A DNA stretch of 64,000 nucleotides from Methanosphaerula palustris E1-9c (GTDB lineage Archaea > Halobacteriota > Methanomicrobia > Methanomicrobiales > Methanospirillaceae), in contig NC_011832.1 in the NCBI RefSeq assembly GCF_000021965.1, forward strand, positions 2,459,242 to 2,523,241. Direction: 5' to 3'. Position 1 is the stretch's first letter. Every line of letters begins with the position of its first letter. Of this stretch, positions 2,302-50,920 are shown in pieces. The notes below the pieces were generated by a model, which did no database searches, had not been told where the DNA came from, and saw only the letters and a program-made list of their open reading frames with translations. A program made the position numbers and the translations under genes.

Positions 2302-2827
2302 GGTATCGAGAATGGCAGATAAGAAATCACCAGCCAGTGGATGGCCAATTGTCCAGGGCGACTTCCATTCAGGGGATGCAAACAGCCCGGTGGCAGTCAT
2401 TACCATGGGCTCACACCTCGACGAACAGGGAATCTGCGATGCAGGCGCAGCCATATGCGGCTCCTGTAAGACAGAGAACCTCGGGCTTGAGAAGGTCGTT
2501 GCAAACGTCATCTCGAACCCGAACATCCGCTTCGTCCTGCTCTGTGGGACTGAAGTGAAAGGGCACCTTTCAGGACAGTCACTCCGCCAGCTCCACTCAT
2601 CAGGTGTTGACAAGGGGAAGATCGTCGGTTCCGAAGGTGCTATCCCGTTCATCGAGAACCTCGATGACGCGGCGATCAAGCGCTTCCAGGAACAGATCGA
2701 GATCGTCAACATCATGGAGAGCGAAGATCTCGGCACCATTAAGGCAAAGATCAACGAACTGAAGGGCAAAGACCCTGGTGCGTTCGCTGGCGATGCCATG
2801 GTCGTCGAGGTCAAGGAAGCAGGCGGC
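2298..2827 (+). repeat. 530-bp near-identical direct repeat, copy 1 (mtrB stop codon to mtrA codon ~172)
   Basis: Copy 1 of a direct repeat offset by 946 bp from 3244-3773. By eye only three differences are visible (2371 A versus 3317 G, and two adjacent bases within codon 158). The repeat begins at the stop codon of the gene upstream and ends inside the MtrA linker, so it carries the intergenic leader, the ribosome-binding site and the cytosolic domain but not the membrane helix. Confidence 0.95.
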
Positions 2828-3034
2828 GCGGCAGAAGAGTCGACCGGCGAAGTACAGCCGCTATCAGGCGAAGTTGTGCTGGTCCACGCAAGGATGAAAG
2901 TGATCGAAAAGATGATCACTGACATCGGGTACTGGGACCGATATGCAGCAGGCGTCTACTCAGGCAAGGTCGAAGGGCTGATGATCGGCCTGATCGTCTC
3001 ATTCGCACTGATTGGATTCTTGTTGATGGGGTGA
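2312..3034 (+). CDS. mtrA: MtrA, corrinoid-carrying subunit A
   Basis: A 240-residue protein with an N-terminal cytosolic domain (about 1-170) that carries the cobamide prosthetic group and alternates between methyl-H4MPT (via MtrH) and coenzyme M. The family motif [10 protein letters not shown] is at 81-90; His85 corresponds in position to the cobalt-ligating histidine known in other MtrA proteins. A variable linker (175-200) leads to one C-terminal membrane helix ([18 protein letters not shown]). The start is preceded by GAGGTATCGAGA. Bases 2298-2827 recur at 3244-3773. This copy keeps the normal MtrA tail, so it is the canonical subunit. Confidence 0.95.
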
Positions 3035-3247: not shown

Positions 3248-3773
3248 GGTATCGAGAATGGCAGATAAGAAATCACCAGCCAGTGGATGGCCAATTGTCC
3301 AGGGCGACTTCCATTCGGGGGATGCAAACAGCCCGGTGGCAGTCATTACCATGGGCTCACACCTCGACGAACAGGGAATCTGCGATGCAGGCGCAGCCAT
3401 ATGCGGCTCCTGTAAGACAGAGAACCTCGGGCTTGAGAAGGTCGTTGCAAACGTCATCTCGAACCCGAACATCCGCTTCGTCCTGCTCTGTGGGACTGAA
3501 GTGAAAGGGCACCTTTCAGGACAGTCACTCCGCCAGCTCCACTCATCAGGTGTTGACAAGGGGAAGATCGTCGGTTCCGAAGGTGCTATCCCGTTCATCG
3601 AGAACCTCGATGACGCGGCGATCAAGCGCTTCCAGGAACAGATCGAGATCGTCAACATCATGGAGAGCGAAGATCTCGGCACCATTAAGGCAAAGATCAA
3701 CGAACTGAAGGGCAAAGACCCTGGTGCGTTCGCTGCTGATGCCATGGTCGTCGAGGTCAAGGAAGCAGGCGGC
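3244..3773 (+). repeat. 530-bp near-identical direct repeat, copy 2 (mtrF stop codon to fusion linker)
   Basis: Copy 2 of the repeat at 2298-2827. It places the MtrA domain and its translation signals in front of mtrG and creates the fusion at 3258. Divergence is abrupt at both ends, as expected for a recombination or gene-conversion tract. Confidence 0.95.
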
Positions 3774-3995
3774 TCAACAGAGGTTGCAGCAGCCGGGGCT
3801 AATCCCCAGTTCCTTGAGATGGAGAAGAGGCTCGATGCAATCGAGAAGAAGATCGAGTTCGTGGACGCAGAGATCGCCCAGCGTGCAGGCCGCAAGGTTG
3901 GGAGAGATATTGGTATTTTATACGGACTGGTAGCTGGATTGACAGTATTTATCATACTGCTCGTTCTGCTCTCCAAATTGAATGCGATAGTGTAA
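3258..3995 (+). CDS. MtrA-MtrG fusion: second MtrA corrinoid domain joined to MtrG
   Basis: A 245-residue chimera occupying the place of mtrG. Residues 1-166 match MtrA at 2312 except for one residue (FAADAM instead of FAGDAM), including the His85 motif [10 protein letters not shown]. After a short linker ([12 protein letters not shown]) the rest, about 180-245, is a complete MtrG-like subunit: an amphipathic/coiled-coil stretch ([20 protein letters not shown]), the family-typical [17 protein letters not shown], and a C-terminal membrane helix. No separate mtrG exists between here and mtrH. The gene carries a copy of the mtrA leader and ribosome-binding site. It is open and in frame, so probably expressed. 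Whether this second domain binds corrinoid in the complex is unknown. Confidence 0.88.
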
Positions 3996-4010: not shown

Positions 4011-5030
4011 ATGTTCAGATTTGAAAAAGAACAACAAGTCTGGGATTTCAATGGTACCAAGATCGGTGGGCAGCCTGGAGAACACCCCACCGTTCTCGGT
4101 GCATCGATCTTCTATAACAAGCACGAGATTGTGCTCGACGACCACAAGGGTACGATCGACAAGCCGAAGGCTGAAGCACTCTGGAACCGCTGTCAGGAAC
4201 TGACCGACGAGACGGGTGTACACTTCTTCATCCAGATCATCGGTGAATTTGGCGAGGCGCTCGAGTCCTACTTTGACTGGTTCGCATCGATCGACGACAA
4301 GACCGCCTTCCTGATGGACTCCTCGGCACCTGCAGCACGTATGCAGGCAGCCAAGTACGTCACCGAGGTCGGACTCGCCAACCGTGCGATCTACAACTCG
4401 ATCAACGGTTCGATCAGCCAGGAAGAGATCGATGTCCTCGCAAAGAGTGACGTCGACGCAGCCATTGTGCTCGCATTCAACCCGGCTGACCCATCCGTCG
4501 CTGGGCGCCAGAAGGTGCTCGGCGAGGGTGGTGTCGCAGGACAGTCCAAGGGTATGATTCAGATCGCAGAGGAGGCAGGTATCACCAGGCCAATCCTCGA
4601 CACTGCAGCCACACCACTCGGTCTCGGTTCAGGCGGATCGTACCGTGAGATCCTTGCATGCAAGGGGATCTATGGTCTTCCAACCGGTGGTGCATACCAC
4701 AACATGACCGTCTCATGGACCTGGCTCCGCAGATGGAAGAAAAACCTCGGCACCGTCTATGACGGAAAACCAGCCCTCAAAGACCAGATGCTCAAGCACT
4801 ATGCAAAGGACATCGAGGCCCTCAAGCAGGCAGTCTGGTCAGCACCAGATATCGGCTGCAACCTGATCGCAAGCACCCTCGGTGCTGACTTGATCATGTT
4901 CGGTCCGATCGAGAACATGGAGCCGATGCTGACGACCCAGGCATATGCAGATATCACGATCCTCGAGGCAGCTCGCGATCTCGGTATCGACACCCAGGAT
5001 CCGAATCATCCAATCTTCAAACTCATCTAA
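4011..5030 (+). CDS. mtrH: MtrH, methyl-H4MPT:corrinoid methyltransferase subunit H
   Basis: A 339-residue soluble subunit that transfers the methyl group from methyl-tetrahydromethanopterin to the corrinoid of MtrA. The N-terminus (FRFEKEQQVWDFNGTKIGGQ) and the body, with alternating strands and helices of a TIM-barrel type, fit the MtrH/MeTr pterin-binding family; examples are FLMDSSAPAARMQAAKYV and DTAATPLGLGSGGSY. No membrane segment is seen. It is the last gene of the operon, 15 bases after the A/G fusion with GAGGAGTA as ribosome-binding site, and is followed by a T-run. Confidence 0.94.
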   Translation: MFRFEKEQQVWDFNGTKIGGQPGEHPTVLGASIFYNKHEIVLDDHKGTIDKPKAEALWNRCQELTDETGVHFFIQIIGEFGEALESYFDWFASIDDKTAFLMDSSAPAARMQAAKYVTEVGLANRAIYNSINGSISQEEIDVLAKSDVDAAIVLAFNPADPSVAGRQKVLGEGGVAGQSKGMIQIAEEAGITRPILDTAATPLGLGSGGSYREILACKGIYGLPTGGAYHNMTVSWTWLRRWKKNLGTVYDGKPALKDQMLKHYAKDIEALKQAVWSAPDIGCNLIASTLGADLIMFGPIENMEPMLTTQAYADITILEAARDLGIDTQDPNHPIFKLI

Positions 5031-45780: not shown

Positions 45781-45909
45781 TGGTATGATAAGGTAATCAA
45801 TACTAATAATTAAGACTCCCGTGTTCAGTAATAAAGCGCAGATGTAAATATTAAGGTATCGAAACGAAGAGAGTATATACTGATACAGAGAGTGCACCGG
45901 TGGACTGTT

Positions 45910-47448
45910 ATGTTGGTTAAGAAGACAAAGAGCCTCTGTCCGGCATGCAAACGCGTGCTTGATGCCACCATTGTGGAAGAGGACAATAAGATCTGGCTGG
46001 AGAGGACCTGTCCGAACCACGGTTTCATCAAGAGCCTATACTGGTCGGACAGCAGAATGTACCACCGCTTCCAGGAGTATGAAGCAGTGGGAACCGGGAT
46101 AGAGGAACCCGTTCTCCAGGGAGAACCCGACACATGTCCCCAGAACTGCGGGCTCTGCTCAGGCCATCACTCGGCCACCCTGCTCGCGAATATCGACGTG
46201 ACCAATCGCTGCAACCTGAACTGCGACTTTTGCTTTGCCAATGCACGGGCCTGCGGGTTCATCTACGAGCCGGACTTTGACGAGATCGTTGGAATGATGA
46301 AGAACCTCCGGAACGAACGGCCGGTTCCGCCGCCGGCTGTACAGTTCTCTGGTGGGGAACCGACGATGCGGGACGACCTTCCGGACCTGATCCGCGAGGC
46401 GAAAGCCCTTGGATTCTCGCAGGTGCAGATCGCATCAAATGGGATCAGACTCGCACAGGATCTGTCCCAGGTGCAGCAGTTGAAGGACGCCGGTCTTTCG
46501 ACGATATACCTGCACTTCGACGGTATATCAAAGGAGACAAACCCGTTCCTTGCCACCAGCAAAAAAGCGATCAGCAACTGTGCTCAGGTCGGGATGGGCG
46601 TGGTGTTGGTGCCGACGGTGATCCACGGTAGAAACGATCAGGAGGTCGGTGCGATCATCAGGTTCGCCGCAGAGAACATCGGGGTGATCAGGGGTGTGAA
46701 CTTTCAGCCCGTCGCCTTCACCGGAGCTGCCAGCGCAGACGATGTAGCCAAGGAACGGGTCACGATCCCTGACCTGACCGCCAACATCGAAACCCAGACC
46801 GGCGGTGCACTCAGGCAGGATGACTTCTATCCGATCCCCTGCGTGGCCCCGTTCACCCACCTAGTCGAGGAGTACACCGGCAAACCGCAGGTCGCTTTCA
46901 CCGCCCACCAGCACTGCGGGGCGGCGACCTACATCTTCGTCAACGGCAACGAGATCGTGCCAGTGAATCGGATGATCGATGTCGAGAAGTTCCTTCAGTC
47001 TGTGGACCACATGGCCATGACCCTGGCACGGGGCGGTTCGGTCAGCAAGTACAGAGCCCTCCTCGAAGGGGTCAAGGACATTCATACCTCGCTCAAGAGG
47101 GGGGAATCCGGGAAGGCCGGCGAGATCTGGCGACTGATCGCGACCACGCTGATCAAGCAAAACTATGATGCACTCCGCGAGTTCCACTGGAACGCCCTCT
47201 TCATCGGGACCATGCACTTCATGGACGACTACAACTATGACCTGGACCGAGTGCAGCGATGTTGCATCCATTATGCAACCCCAGACGGCAGGATGATCCC
47301 ATTCTGTACTTACAACTCGGGTCCGGTCTATCGCGAGAAGATCTGGAAGCAGTATGCAAAGCCACTCCCCCAAAAAAGTGGAGAAACACCGGGCATTGAG
47401 AGCTCCACCATAGAAACGGCGGTTCTGTCCGATGTTCCCCCGTCCTGA
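45910..47448 (+). CDS. tes: Tetraether lipid synthase Tes, radical SAM
   Basis: A 512-residue protein. The N-terminal zinc-ribbon-like part has CPACKR (10-14) and CPNHGF (34-39), then CPQNCGLC (76-83), and the radical SAM cluster motif CNLNCDFC at 101-108. QFSGGEPTMRDDLPDLI is the SAM-contact GGEP motif. This Cys arrangement matches the MJ0619/MA1486-type enzyme shown to join two archaeol chains into tetraether lipids. GGTGGA lies seven bases before the ATG. It is divergent from carS, which supports a lipid role. The end of the gene overlaps slightly with a pseudogene on the other strand. Confidence 0.87.
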   Translation: MLVKKTKSLCPACKRVLDATIVEEDNKIWLERTCPNHGFIKSLYWSDSRMYHRFQEYEAVGTGIEEPVLQGEPDTCPQNCGLCSGHHSATLLANIDVTNRCNLNCDFCFANARACGFIYEPDFDEIVGMMKNLRNERPVPPPAVQFSGGEPTMRDDLPDLIREAKALGFSQVQIASNGIRLAQDLSQVQQLKDAGLSTIYLHFDGISKETNPFLATSKKAISNCAQVGMGVVLVPTVIHGRNDQEVGAIIRFAAENIGVIRGVNFQPVAFTGAASADDVAKERVTIPDLTANIETQTGGALRQDDFYPIPCVAPFTHLVEEYTGKPQVAFTAHQHCGAATYIFVNGNEIVPVNRMIDVEKFLQSVDHMAMTLARGGSVSKYRALLEGVKDIHTSLKRGESGKAGEIWRLIATTLIKQNYDALREFHWNALFIGTMHFMDDYNYDLDRVQRCCIHYATPDGRMIPFCTYNSGPVYREKIWKQYAKPLPQKSGETPGIESSTIETAVLSDVPPS

Positions 47449-48398: not shown

Positions 48399-49202
48399 AT
48401 GAGAGCGGATATCTATATCGTCCATAAACCGACCGACACTGAGGGGGACAACTCCACGGCGATGGTCACCCGAGAACTCGATATGAAGGGGGAATGCTGG
48501 CACCCCCTCTCCCTCGCAGAGATCGATCTGTTCCGGAACAGGATAGAGCAGGCGGTGATCTGGGTCTGTGGGATGGAACAGGAGAACCACCAGTTCGAGG
48601 TGCTGCAGACGTTGGCCGCCAGAAATCGTGTCGTCAACACCCCTGAAGCGATCGCAACCTGTGCAAGCAAAGCCCTGACCACCGCGCTATTGGTCAGAGA
48701 GAATATACGAACACCAGAGACCTTCTTCTCGGCCAGCAGAAGAGACGCTGCGGTGTTCATCAGGTTACAGGGAAAAGTGGTCTATAAACCAGTGTACGGG
48801 TTCGACGGCAACGGCGTCAGGTTGATCACCAGCGAGGACCAGCTCGAAGACGGGCCGTACTATCTGCAGGAGTATGTCCCCAACGACCGCGATTTCCGGG
48901 TCTTCGTCATCGGAGACGAGGCTGTCGGTGCCATCGAACGGCGGTCAGATCACCTGACCCACAACATCCACCAGGGCGGAACAGCCAAGGCTGTGCCAGT
49001 GGATCCGGAGATGGCATCGATCGCCATCGCTGCGACAGAGGCAGTCAATGCTGACTACGCCGGCGTCGACCTGTTGCTGGACCAGGACGGGTATACTGTC
49101 CTCGAGGTGAACGGCACCCCGAACTGGCATGGCATGACAGCCCCGATCCCGGTTCTGATCGCCGATCACCTAGTTTCAGCGGCCCGGCTCACTCGCCGAT
49201 GA
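48399..49202 (+). CDS. RimK-like ATP-grasp glutamate ligase (MptN/CofF-type candidate)
   Basis: A 267-residue ATP-grasp ligase. The ATP-binding part has VVYKPVYGFDGNGVRLI and YYLQEYVPNDRDFRVFVIGD, and the metal-binding end is VLEVNGTPNWHGM. In methanogens this family adds L-glutamate to tetrahydromethanopterin (MptN) or coenzyme F420 (CofF). Which one cannot be decided here. Start 48399 has AGAGGTG five bases upstream. It converges with the small gene next to marker protein 14, overlapping 14 bases, so a methanogenic coenzyme role fits. Confidence 0.75.
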   Translation: MRADIYIVHKPTDTEGDNSTAMVTRELDMKGECWHPLSLAEIDLFRNRIEQAVIWVCGMEQENHQFEVLQTLAARNRVVNTPEAIATCASKALTTALLVRENIRTPETFFSASRRDAAVFIRLQGKVVYKPVYGFDGNGVRLITSEDQLEDGPYYLQEYVPNDRDFRVFVIGDEAVGAIERRSDHLTHNIHQGGTAKAVPVDPEMASIAIAATEAVNADYAGVDLLLDQDGYTVLEVNGTPNWHGMTAPIPVLIADHLVSAARLTRR

Positions 49203-49425
49203 ATTGAATCAACTCGGCGCGGACGTAGGCTTCAACCTCTTCGAGGACCGGCTTTGTCCCGCGGAAGGCCAGTACCTCACGCTCGTCGCCGTCCATATTC
49301 GCAAATGAGATTCGTTCGCGCCGGTCGGCCAGTTCCACATCGAACTTCTTTACGACATCGGTGATGATCGACCGCGGTACTCCTGGGGGAATGATGATAT
49401 CATACAGTTCTGCTTCTTCTACCAT
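49189..49425 (-). CDS. Small conserved-looking protein next to marker protein 14
   Basis: A 78-residue soluble protein (VEEAELYDIIIPPGVPRSII, then FDVELADRRERISFANMDGD and EEVEAYVRAELIQFI). It has no cysteine or membrane helix. The start at 49425 is preceded by AGTAGG and lies just behind the marker 14 stop; a TTG at 49443 would overlap it. It probably is co-transcribed with marker 14. I cannot name the family with certainty; small DUF2102-like proteins are a possibility. Confidence 0.65.
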   Translation of the reverse strand: MVEEAELYDIIIPPGVPRSIITDVVKKFDVELADRRERISFANMDGDEREVLAFRGTKPVLEEVEAYVRAELIQFIGE

Positions 49426-49432
49426 GGGAAAC

Positions 49433-50920
49433 CTACTTTCCAATTTTTATTCTCCGGGGGAGGATACAGGGCCCTCCACGGACCCCGCCGACCGGACACT
49501 TCGGATGGCCGAGGGAGTTCATACACCGACCCATCAGGGCGGCCCCGCGGGCCAGCCCGTCATCGACGAAGACCAGATGATCGTTCGGATCATCCACAAA
49601 GAGATGCCGATCGGTCAAACCCTGCAGGATATAGGCCGGCTTCTGCCCTGAGATCGCTGCCCTGCCCGTAAACCCGATCGAAGTATTTGGGGGAACCAGA
49701 TCCTTCTGCACCGCCACATCGACCAGCCGGAGGGCCATCTCGGCACAGACCCGGTCCACGACATCAGTCAGCATCGGGAGGCCGTGCTCTCTGTATATCT
49801 CGCCGCCAATCTCTTTAAGGACCCCGGTATCAGACCCGTTCTCGCCCAGGTCGCACCCAATCATCGCGATACCCGAAGCCGAGGCCACATCTGCCCTGAC
49901 TGGGACACGGCCGAACCGTGTTCTCTCTGGGGGAACGATCCTGATATCAATATGTTCATGGATCTGTTTCACGTACTCGTCGACCTTTCCCCGCTTTAGT
50001 CGGAGCGATAGGCTGCCGAGGGTCGACCGGTCACTGAAGAGATCGAGGGCTGTCCCCCGTTTCTCCTCTACCAGGCCGGTCCCCCGGACGAGCGCGTCCG
50101 GGATCGCGCCGGCAAGGCCGCAGAAGTTACCCACCGTCTTTGCAAACGGATTCTCGGTATCCGCATCGACATCACTGGTGATCCGGCCGTCAAGGGTGGT
50201 CCCGAAGTCCACCGAGACACAGGGGTTCCGGAAGTCCACCGTGGTCCACTTTGCTCCCTCCTTGATTCCAGCCATCGCGAGCTCCCCTTCCATCTCGTTG
50301 GCGACCATCTCCACTCCTGTGGCCCCGACCGGTGGAAGTACACCGGCCACAGCACCGACAAAGACAACCTTGTCTGCATAGGAGAACGGCTGCAACCGCC
50401 GGGGAAGGTTGCCCTTGCCCATCGGCGGGGTCATCTTCCTCGGTGGGACACCGGCCTCCAGGCAGCCATTGGCCAGCGCGATGACGAAGTCCCCGACCTG
50501 GTCGGGCGAATCCATCGCGGCAACTACTCCGGTCGACCTGACCACAAAATCGAGGTCGTCCTCAATCGAGAGGTTTGCCTCTTTGTGGCACTCGATCAGG
50601 GTCTGTTTAACCAGTTCAGTCACCGACTCTCGGGTCAGTTCAGTCCCATCCAGGGTCGCTCCGAAGATTACCTCACCCGGCCTCGGGGGACGGACATCCC
50701 GACTCATCTTGACCGTCTTATTGATCACATAACTGCGGCCGGTCTCGAGGTTCGTCCCGGTCAGGATGCACTTGGTGGTGGTGTTCCCCATCTCAACCGA
50801 AGCCACAATAAAGTACGGCTTCACCTTGTATTCGGGCATCACGCTACCTGCACCATGCGAGATCGAAGGGGGCGGGGGGCTCTCAACGATATGAGGTACA
50901 GGCCCGAAAAAGCGTTCCAT
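49433..50920 (-). CDS. Methanogenesis marker protein 14
   Basis: A protein of about 495 residues restricted to methanogens, function unknown. The motif VASVEMGNTTTKCILTGTNL resembles the phosphate-1 loop of actin-like ASKHA ATPases, and VSVDFGTTLDGRIT is a possible second phosphate loop, so an ATPase of the reactivase type can be inferred. The end is Gly-rich. Start candidates are 50935, 50920 and 50839; 50920 keeps the part MERFFGPVPHIVESPPPPSI that seems family-like. It opens a two-gene unit. Confidence 0.83.
   Translation of the reverse strand: MERFFGPVPHIVESPPPPSISHGAGSVMPEYKVKPYFIVASVEMGNTTTKCILTGTNLETGRSYVINKTVKMSRDVRPPRPGEVIFGATLDGTELTRESVTELVKQTLIECHKEANLSIEDDLDFVVRSTGVVAAMDSPDQVGDFVIALANGCLEAGVPPRKMTPPMGKGNLPRRLQPFSYADKVVFVGAVAGVLPPVGATGVEMVANEMEGELAMAGIKEGAKWTTVDFRNPCVSVDFGTTLDGRITSDVDADTENPFAKTVGNFCGLAGAIPDALVRGTGLVEEKRGTALDLFSDRSTLGSLSLRLKRGKVDEYVKQIHEHIDIRIVPPERTRFGRVPVRADVASASGIAMIGCDLGENGSDTGVLKEIGGEIYREHGLPMLTDVVDRVCAEMALRLVDVAVQKDLVPPNTSIGFTGRAAISGQKPAYILQGLTDRHLFVDDPNDHLVFVDDGLARGAALMGRCMNSLGHPKCPVGGVRGGPCILPRRIKIGK

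Follow-up and report, generated by a model that had tools for sequence, protein, structure and literature searches.

From time to time, corrinoid methyltransferases with a Co(I) intermediate have to be reactivated by reduction. RamA carries an iron-sulfur domain, and in the activases of 2-hydroxyacyl-CoA dehydratases and benzoyl-CoA reductases each subunit gives two cysteines to a 4Fe-4S cluster. A reference cited in PMC12774963 names RamA as a reductive activase for corrinoid proteins. In methanogenesis, sodium is pumped at the step catalysed by Mtr, which relies on the corrinoid bound to MtrA; a link between Mtr and the protein known as marker 14 is already in print. ProPhylo places marker 14 among the proteins in perfect agreement with 28/28 methanogen genomes (PMC3226654), and the protein is absent from three Methanomassiliicoccales, which are without Mtr (Borrel 2014, PMC4153887). 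Likewise, a protein termed m26 is tied to Mtr and reported in Thorarchaeia (Adam 2022, PMC9635834). We infer that m26 is marker 14, and if so its occurrence in Asgard archaea has been published. In this study, we analyzed the marker 14 gene in a stretch of 64,000 nucleotides from Methanosphaerula palustris E1-9c (hereafter the window; G000:C1:2459242-2523241, where G000 is the window's own genome, a single contig of 2.92 Mb). We found that marker 14 tracks MtrA, and not methyl-coenzyme M reductase (Mcr), across lineages. Hence, marker 14 very probably serves MtrA or the Mtr complex, and we lean towards an ATP-dependent reductive activation as the nature of this service.

The features of marker 14 in the window are the following (residues are counted from the later ATG, with Met at 50839, and conservation refers to 61 aligned members):

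49433..50920, minus strand: marker 14 (DUF2114), predicted ASKHA ATPase and proposed MtrA activase, from profiles, fold and structure matches
50771..50794, minus strand: phosphate-1-like loop EMGNTTTK, residues 16-23; E16, G18, N19, T21 and K23 identical in 61/61
50186..50209, minus strand: phosphate-2-like loop DFGTTLDG, residues 211-218; D211, G213, T215 and G218 identical in 61/61
49646..49675, minus strand: adenosine-motif-like stretch GFTGRAAISG, residues 389-398; G389, G392 and R393 identical in 61/61
49466..49525, minus strand: C-terminal stretch between invariant C439 and C458, both present in 61/61

The protein matches PF09887 over residues 8-466 (E 4.8e-220, 731.2 bits against a cut-off of 25), the sole Pfam family found in it at E<=1, and TIGR03285 of NCBIfam (629.1 bits against 274). 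The start at 50920 (MERFFGPVPHIVES...) retains the N-terminal motif GPKPHIAES, and we prefer it over the ATG at 50839 because homologs share this motif as GPxPHIxES. A first-pass annotation, made from the letters of the window and their open reading frames (ORFs), had described three genes here, marker 14, a 78-residue protein and a RimK-like ligase, all of which exist at the positions given. It had also read the two phosphate loops as signs of an ASKHA-like, ATP-driven reactivase or assembly factor, and their key residues proved invariant, as is R219 of DFGTTLDGR (61/61). The GFTGRAAISG stretch may correspond to the adenosine motif. Cysteines C126 and C240 are kept in 58 and 52 members, respectively, and the stretch bounded by C439 and C458 is, judging from the alignment, a possible metal, cluster or cobalt-contact site.

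The AlphaFold2 model of marker 14, built on the 61-sequence alignment, has a mean predicted local distance difference test score (pLDDT) of 89.0 and a predicted template modelling score (pTM) of 0.90. Foldseek retrieved 119 PDB chains at E<=0.001, led by a glucokinase (E 1.4e-6). The 50 best of them, classed as ASKHA from their titles, comprise hexokinases and glucokinases, Kae1/TsaD/Qri7, Hsp70-like proteins, other sugar kinases and RACo. RACo itself (3zyy) ranks sixth (E 6.2e-6) and its complex with a corrinoid protein (4c1n) 17th, and Ssz1 and the RAC complex are also among the matches. With VIA-align, in which Z values within 1 of each other are tied, the scores reach 18.0 (SO_1313) and include those of AnmK (17.9), the putative sugar kinase MK0840 (17.6), a 3-methylbenzoyl-CoA reductase chain (Z 17.5, root-mean-square deviation (rmsd) 3.5 over 249 residues), the 2-hydroxyisocaproyl-CoA dehydratase activator (16.4) and 2-hydroxyglutaryl-CoA dehydratase component A (15.9). 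The ASKHA matches cover residues 8-451 of the 468 in the model. A sequence search of solved structures returned nothing for marker 14 (best E 0.93). Altogether, the prediction of an ASKHA ATPase fold is one of high confidence and both phosphate loops are conserved; marker 14 is presumably an active ATPase. The earlier reactivase idea is supported, and its target can be narrowed to MtrA/Mtr. The relevant genes of the window are:

2312..3034, plus strand: MtrA copy 1, the proposed target, with the corrinoid-ligand His at 85 (PF04208, 284 bits; His85 in 13/13 aligned MtrA)
3258..3995, plus strand: MtrA copy 2, same operon (PF04208, 285 bits)
4011..5030, plus strand: MtrH, the methyltransferase partner of MtrA; as query, it finds Pfam-called MtrH

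Over the first 130 columns of their alignment, the two MtrA copies do not differ, which agrees with a report of duplicated mtrA genes and gene conversion in Methanomicrobiales (PMC4632066). A third, diverged MtrA-like gene lies elsewhere in the same genome (G000:C1:2700157-2700645, 120 bits).

Searches by profile for marker 14, MtrE and the small protein covered 294 genomes of the window's phylum (G, L, f and g denote genomes, loci, families and genus-level groups as numbered in this analysis). Marker 14 occurs in 178 of them and MtrE in 162, with both in 160; only G002 and G185 have MtrE without marker 14, and 18 genomes show the reverse. Fisher tests on co-occurrence, here and in the Asgard sample, ignore the relatedness of genomes. 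Nine of the 18 MtrE-less genomes belong to families f11, f16 and f19. All nine have MtrA, and McrA (PF02249) was detected in none of the nine. In f11 (L127) and f19 (L130, L135, L147, L157) the gene order is mtrA, mtrH, at least one ORF, marker 14, core methionine synthase and thymidylate synthase; L127 scores 328.6 bits for PRK00957 (cut-off 258) and 255.9 for TIGR03283 (cut-off 174.6). Of the four f16 genomes inspected, one (G195) carries mtrA-mtrH and marker 14 on a single stretch. Between mtrH and marker 14 of such Mcr-less archaea we also observed a protein of 339-345 residues (L130:8365-9402, L134:8729-9748, L135:7817-8854), which has no Pfam match.

Linkage to mtr genes recurs in other lineages (the names Methanocella-like and ANME-1-like were assigned in this analysis). 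In Methanocella-like f14, marker 14 lies 3' of mtrH (L069; mtrH by Pfam). In Archaeoglobi g46 (L138, L139), the order mtrEDCBA..H is followed by several genes, a NifB-like gene and marker 14, on the same strand and about 4.5 kb past mtrH. In ANME-1-like f10, marker 14 stands head-to-head with mtrE at 256-493 bp in at least 8 of 41 genomes (G194, G200, G210, G225, G233, G261, G345, G353); it is not adjacent to mtrE in G205, and the two genes are on different contigs in G162 and G286. Marker 14 lies 1.5 kb past mtrH in Methanobacteriaceae L175, and in Methanoperedenaceae L216 it is followed by DUF1894 and then by mtrE onward. MtrA and/or MtrH were found near marker 14 in 11 of the best 80 of 461 loci (up to 6 kb on either side).

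Two further features of these surroundings were observed. The NifB-like radical SAM protein is encoded directly 5' of marker 14 in Archaeoglobi (L138, L139, L165, L167, L179), and in L138 and L139 this pair closes an extended run of mtr genes. The neighbours of marker 14 or mtrE include marker 17 and an MCR_C protein similar to marker 7 (L136:4718-6171, L139:229-1657), which brings Mcr- and Mtr-related genes together at one place.

The Asgard sample, 148 genomes from the phylum of a Thorarchaeota record, gives a similar picture. Marker 14 is present in 37 of these genomes and MtrA in 49. With canonical MtrA taken as at least 170 bits, a line set after inspection of the score table, 33 of the 37 marker 14 genomes have canonical MtrA, and 33 of the 35 genomes with canonical MtrA have marker 14. 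In 32 genomes marker 14 lies 1194-1226 bp downstream of mtrA on the same strand, the space of one gene. This gene is mtrH in L214, L215 and L219 (in L215 by Pfam), and the order mtrH-mtrA-mtrH-marker 14 was confirmed by Pfam in L215. Another 14 genomes have divergent MtrA alone, in most cases in an ORF some 510 residues long, and marker 14 was found in none of them. McrA was not found in any of the 37 marker 14 genomes. Together with the nine genomes of f11, f16 and f19, marker 14 therefore occurs in 46 genomes without detectable McrA, and the earlier label "methanogen-specific" has to be dropped. The MtrA proteins of Mcr-less lineages keep the His aligned to the window's His85 (13/13 sequences aligned), the residue described as lower axial ligand in M. 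mazei MtrA (PMC12774963). They are without the hydrophobic C-terminal helix, with a maximal 19-residue hydropathy of 0.82-1.28 (n=7) against 1.94-2.87 (n=6). Since the His is kept and the membrane helix is gone, what is common to all these settings is the corrinoid domain plus MtrH, and neither the sodium pump nor Mcr.

The activase reading rests on the predicted fold, the conservation of the nucleotide loops, and the co-occurrence and operon linkage with mtrA and mtrH, also where Mcr or MtrE is undetected. An ASKHA ATPase that tracks MtrA in soluble and membrane, methanogenic and Mcr-less settings has the profile expected of an activase. MtrA operates via cob(I)amide, at times oxidised to inactive Co(II) or Co(III). 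In the mechanism that we propose, marker 14 would be an ATPase of the ASKHA fold that specifically serves MtrA together with MtrH, its partner. It would dock on MtrA, where ATP binding and hydrolysis would make the site accessible or reduce the barrier, and an electron from reduced ferredoxin, or from a cluster on the two invariant C-terminal cysteines, would restore Co(I). Such a protein would resemble RACo and RamA in its task and be built differently. More tentatively, and with less than even confidence, marker 14 could be the founding member of a separate class of compact ASKHA activases that have no ferredoxin domain. In this view, its invariant C-terminal cysteine pair would pass on the low-potential electron or contact the cobalt, and its original job would lie in a soluble MtrA-MtrH methyl shuttle and not in methanogenesis. 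In some Mcr-less archaea this putative shuttle is encoded with the core methionine synthase and might run from methyl-tetrahydromethanopterin to methionine; in Asgard archaea it would be encoded with two MtrH proteins.

A number of observations weigh against this interpretation. On the structural side, the Foldseek superpositions are poor (template modelling score 0.32 and rmsd 17.3 for RACo), RACo is not among the best 50 VIA-align rows, and kinases and other ASKHA proteins match equally well or better, as do AnmK and glucokinase, so that the fold does not choose the reaction. BcrAD_BadFG (PF01869) is touched by only 1 of the 61 members (E 0.26), and hhalign of marker 14 against one archaeal CoA-dehydratase-type activase (f30) gave a probability of 0.4%. 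Among 25 of the 28 Pfam families matched by the 61 members, we saw neither a ferredoxin or 2Fe-2S domain nor a match to the RACo family. On the genomic side, marker 14 and mtrA are about 45 kb apart in the window and on different contigs in 3/4 f16 genomes (G163, G181, G188). Most Methanosarcinaceae and Methanothrix loci among the best 80 are without MtrA or MtrH near marker 14, and in the Methanosarcinaceae loci seen it is not beside mtr. In the phylum, MtrA occurs without marker 14 in G002 (mtrA split at a contig end), G137 (a single contig with two MtrA), G171 and G272, and the MtrE genome G185 likewise counts against a strict association; marker 14 occurs without detected MtrA in G220 (a fragment at a contig start), G237 and G290. 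The Asgard exceptions are G467, G513, G531 and G548, with marker 14 and no MtrA, G457 and G516, with canonical MtrA and no marker 14, and the 14 genomes with divergent MtrA only. Finally, McrA was also undetected in G041, a 99%-complete genome of the window's methanogen order that has MtrE, and in G194, G210 and G237 of f10. Given the near-complete G041, an undetected McrA is no proof of its loss.

The main rival is a non-redox factor for MtrA, an ATPase similar to Hsp70 or to the diol dehydratase reactivase that loads cobamide or exchanges damaged cobamide. Co-occurrence and operon linkage fit this alternative equally well, the fold is common to chaperone-type ASKHA proteins such as Ssz1 and the RAC complex, and the lack of a redox domain match in marker 14 speaks for it. 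However, no diol-dehydratase reactivase appears among the same 25 of 28 Pfam families, and a pure exchange factor has no obvious need for a cysteine pair that is invariant in all members. We give this alternative an appreciable but minor chance. A small-molecule kinase for an Mtr cofactor or precursor, for example of cobamide or a pterin, would account for AnmK and MK0840 being among the best VIA-align matches and for the glucokinase at the head of the Foldseek matches, but within 1 Z the kinases are tied with the activases. Neither the one-gene distance to mtrA in 32/37 Asgard genomes nor the absence where only divergent MtrA occurs (0/14) is expected for a cofactor kinase, which makes this proposal improbable. 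Service to Mcr, in its activation or assembly, is what the marker name suggests. It agrees with gene order in f10, in which marker 14 is followed by marker 17 and the marker 7-like gene, and in Archaeoglobi, in which those two are upstream of mtrE, as well as with the presence of marker 14 in G290 and, as a fragment, in G220, which bear Mcr and no MtrA. Nevertheless, marker 14 was not found in three other genomes of this kind (G167, G249, G278), its absence from the three Methanomassiliicoccales (PMC4153887) points the same way, and the 46 genomes without detectable McrA disfavour Mcr as the target, a role that we regard as very improbable.

The remaining rival concerns the gene directly after marker 14, which the first-pass annotation had taken for a partner. 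The neighbours of marker 14 in the window are:

49189..49425, minus strand: 78-residue protein with a b-a-b-b-a model and weak KH/PII-like matches, a conserved neighbour of marker 14 in the order
48399..49202, plus strand: RimK-family ATP-grasp ligase by profile score, a neighbour only, outside the conserved unit

The small gene begins a few bases 3' of marker 14 and meets the convergent RimK-like gene. We searched 150 genomes of the window's order (35 genera) for the small protein and 150 for marker 14. The small protein is present in 141 of them and in 35/35 genera, with 55-64% identity to the window copy in 19 of the better-matched sequences, from which we conclude that the small ORF is a real gene. 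Marker 14 is present in 145/150 genomes, including all 141 with the small protein. It occurs alone in four, namely G041 and G044 (truncated matches) and G127 and G128 (weak, E 2.9e-57 and 5.3e-17), and neither gene was found in G002, G050, G134, G137 and G148. Among 50 loci of the order (L001-L050, best-scoring matches and no random draw), 43 are distinct, and in 43/43 the small gene lies downstream of marker 14 and shares its strand, the matched parts being 3-85 bp apart. The two genes lie on different contigs, near contig starts, in G020 and G091. Conservation and adjacency of the small protein, as proposed earlier, thus hold within the order; of the two findings named earlier as fatal to the proposal, a missing ASKHA fold and an unconserved small protein, neither was obtained. 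Both features would suit an obligate two-subunit machine of the kind known from reactivases with a small subunit. Elsewhere the partnership breaks down. The small gene is not adjacent to marker 14 in f7, f8, f12, f22 and f30, and the small protein was not seen at the best 80 of 461 marker 14 loci (up to 6 kb on each side). At E<=1e-5 it is found in 124/294 phylum genomes, 121 of these with marker 14; the other three (G249, G272, G278) all have alkyl/methyl-CoM reductase genes. The same threshold gave no match to it in the nine genomes of f11, f16 and f19, which keep marker 14 and have no detected McrA. Because in other lineages the small gene stands apart from marker 14, near ycaO or different genes, the two proteins are unlikely to form a fixed complex: the small one is most likely not an obligate partner, and a two-subunit machine has a low probability.

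What the small protein does instead is suggested by its surroundings outside the order. Homologs from f7 and f14 are encoded near YcaO (TIGR03266), and TfuA is above cut-off in f14 and just under it in f7 (233.8 against 235.2). In 3/4 f10 loci, the homolog adjoins YcaO or is separated from it by a single ORF. The first small-protein profile had missed these f10 homologs, a false absence; the weak matches look like divergent homologs in 4/4 examined, with 26.7-29.1 bits for three and the fourth matched in two pieces. We take YcaO to be the McrA thioamidation gene, and this setting suggests that the small protein is a third component of McrA thioglycine formation. It may well be an Mcr maturation protein that shares the marker 14 operon in this order, a reading that we hold at slightly under even confidence. 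Other homologs lie by marker 2 and NifB in f8 (L059) and by a 2-hydroxyglutaryl-CoA-dehydratase-like pair in f30 (L074), and six Archaeoglobi g46 genomes yielded none (one of them, G204, was tested for McrA and has it). The YcaO neighbourhoods were observed in L251, L252, L253, L065 and L069-L071, in f14 also with TfuA and DUF2098. The model of the protein, b-a-b-b-a (pLDDT 90.3, pTM 0.76), has weak KH-, CutA- and PII-like matches, with KH at a best Foldseek E of 0.059 and Z of 5.9 or less, and Pfam KH_DEAH11 at 13.5 bits against a cut-off of 27. The protein has no NCBIfam family match and no Pfam family above cut-off, and a sequence search of solved structures returned nothing (best E 0.3). 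Two known small Mtr proteins were considered and rejected: MtrI is described as exclusive to Methanosarcinales (PMC12774963), and MtrR, a protein of 49 residues, as restricted to Methanosarcina (PMC13370731).

The ligase had been described as a possible MptN/CofF enzyme and third member of the cluster. It passes only the general RimK-family cut-off among the NCBIfam equivalog and family cut-offs shown (TIGR00768, 153.9 bits against 143.4), and in Pfam RimK and other ATP-grasp domains are above cut-off. It falls under the equivalog cut-offs of MptN (170.2 against 350 bits) and CofF (67.9 against 300 bits), and a RimK-like gene stands beside the pair in 1/43 distinct loci, the window's own. Accordingly, the trio is no conserved cluster. 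A gene for tetraether lipid synthase (Tes; window 45892-47448, 727 bits against a cut-off of 450) is a near neighbour of the three genes. We also noticed a second, diverged and sometimes partial, marker 14 copy in seven order genomes (L239-L245). No small gene and no second MtrA system, that is, no MtrA or MtrH, was seen alongside in these seven stretches, some of which are short.

A candidate gene for an activase makes the question of Mtr activation testable in genetically tractable methanogens. Moreover, expression may prove simpler for the soluble MtrA-MtrH-marker 14 sets of Asgard or Met33H-type archaea than for the membrane complex. In Mcr-less archaea, we suggest that marker 14 points to a functional methyl shuttle based on MtrA and not to methanogenesis.

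Among known systems, an Mcr activation or assembly factor would be expected only together with Mcr, and marker 14 occurs in the 46 genomes without detectable McrA. The diol dehydratase reactivase has a family domain and a small subunit, whereas marker 14 is without a match to this domain among 25 of its 28 Pfam families and its small neighbour is not co-distributed with it outside the order. The activases of the CoA-dehydratase type (1hux, 4ehu, 9gai) have the same compact ASKHA fold (Z 15.9-17.5, rmsd 3.5-3.6); to the two cluster cysteines of each of their subunits correspond, in number, the two invariant cysteines of marker 14. No sequence relation between them and marker 14 was found, and the proposed target of the latter is a corrinoid protein. 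RACo (3zyy, 4c1n) shares the ASKHA ATPase fold, and both proteins are tied to corrinoid methyl transfer. Unlike RACo, which has an N-terminal 2Fe-2S domain before the ATPase domain, marker 14 showed no counterpart of it, and its target, as a putative activator, would be a different protein. RamA of Methanosarcina performs the ATP-dependent activation of a methanogen corrinoid protein, as we propose by analogy for marker 14; its iron-sulfur domain has no counterpart found in marker 14 when the two are compared by description. The available portions of PMC3226654 and PMC4153887 treat the same family and mention neither a fold, an activase role, MtrA-MtrH operons of Mcr-less archaea nor the cysteine pair, and we found no published ASKHA or activase assignment for marker 14 in the open-licence literature. 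What this study adds is the predicted fold of marker 14, the activase proposal and the cysteine pair, the operon detail in Mcr-less archaea including the link to methionine synthase, the difference between canonical and divergent MtrA in their association with marker 14, and the parting of the small protein from marker 14 outside the order.

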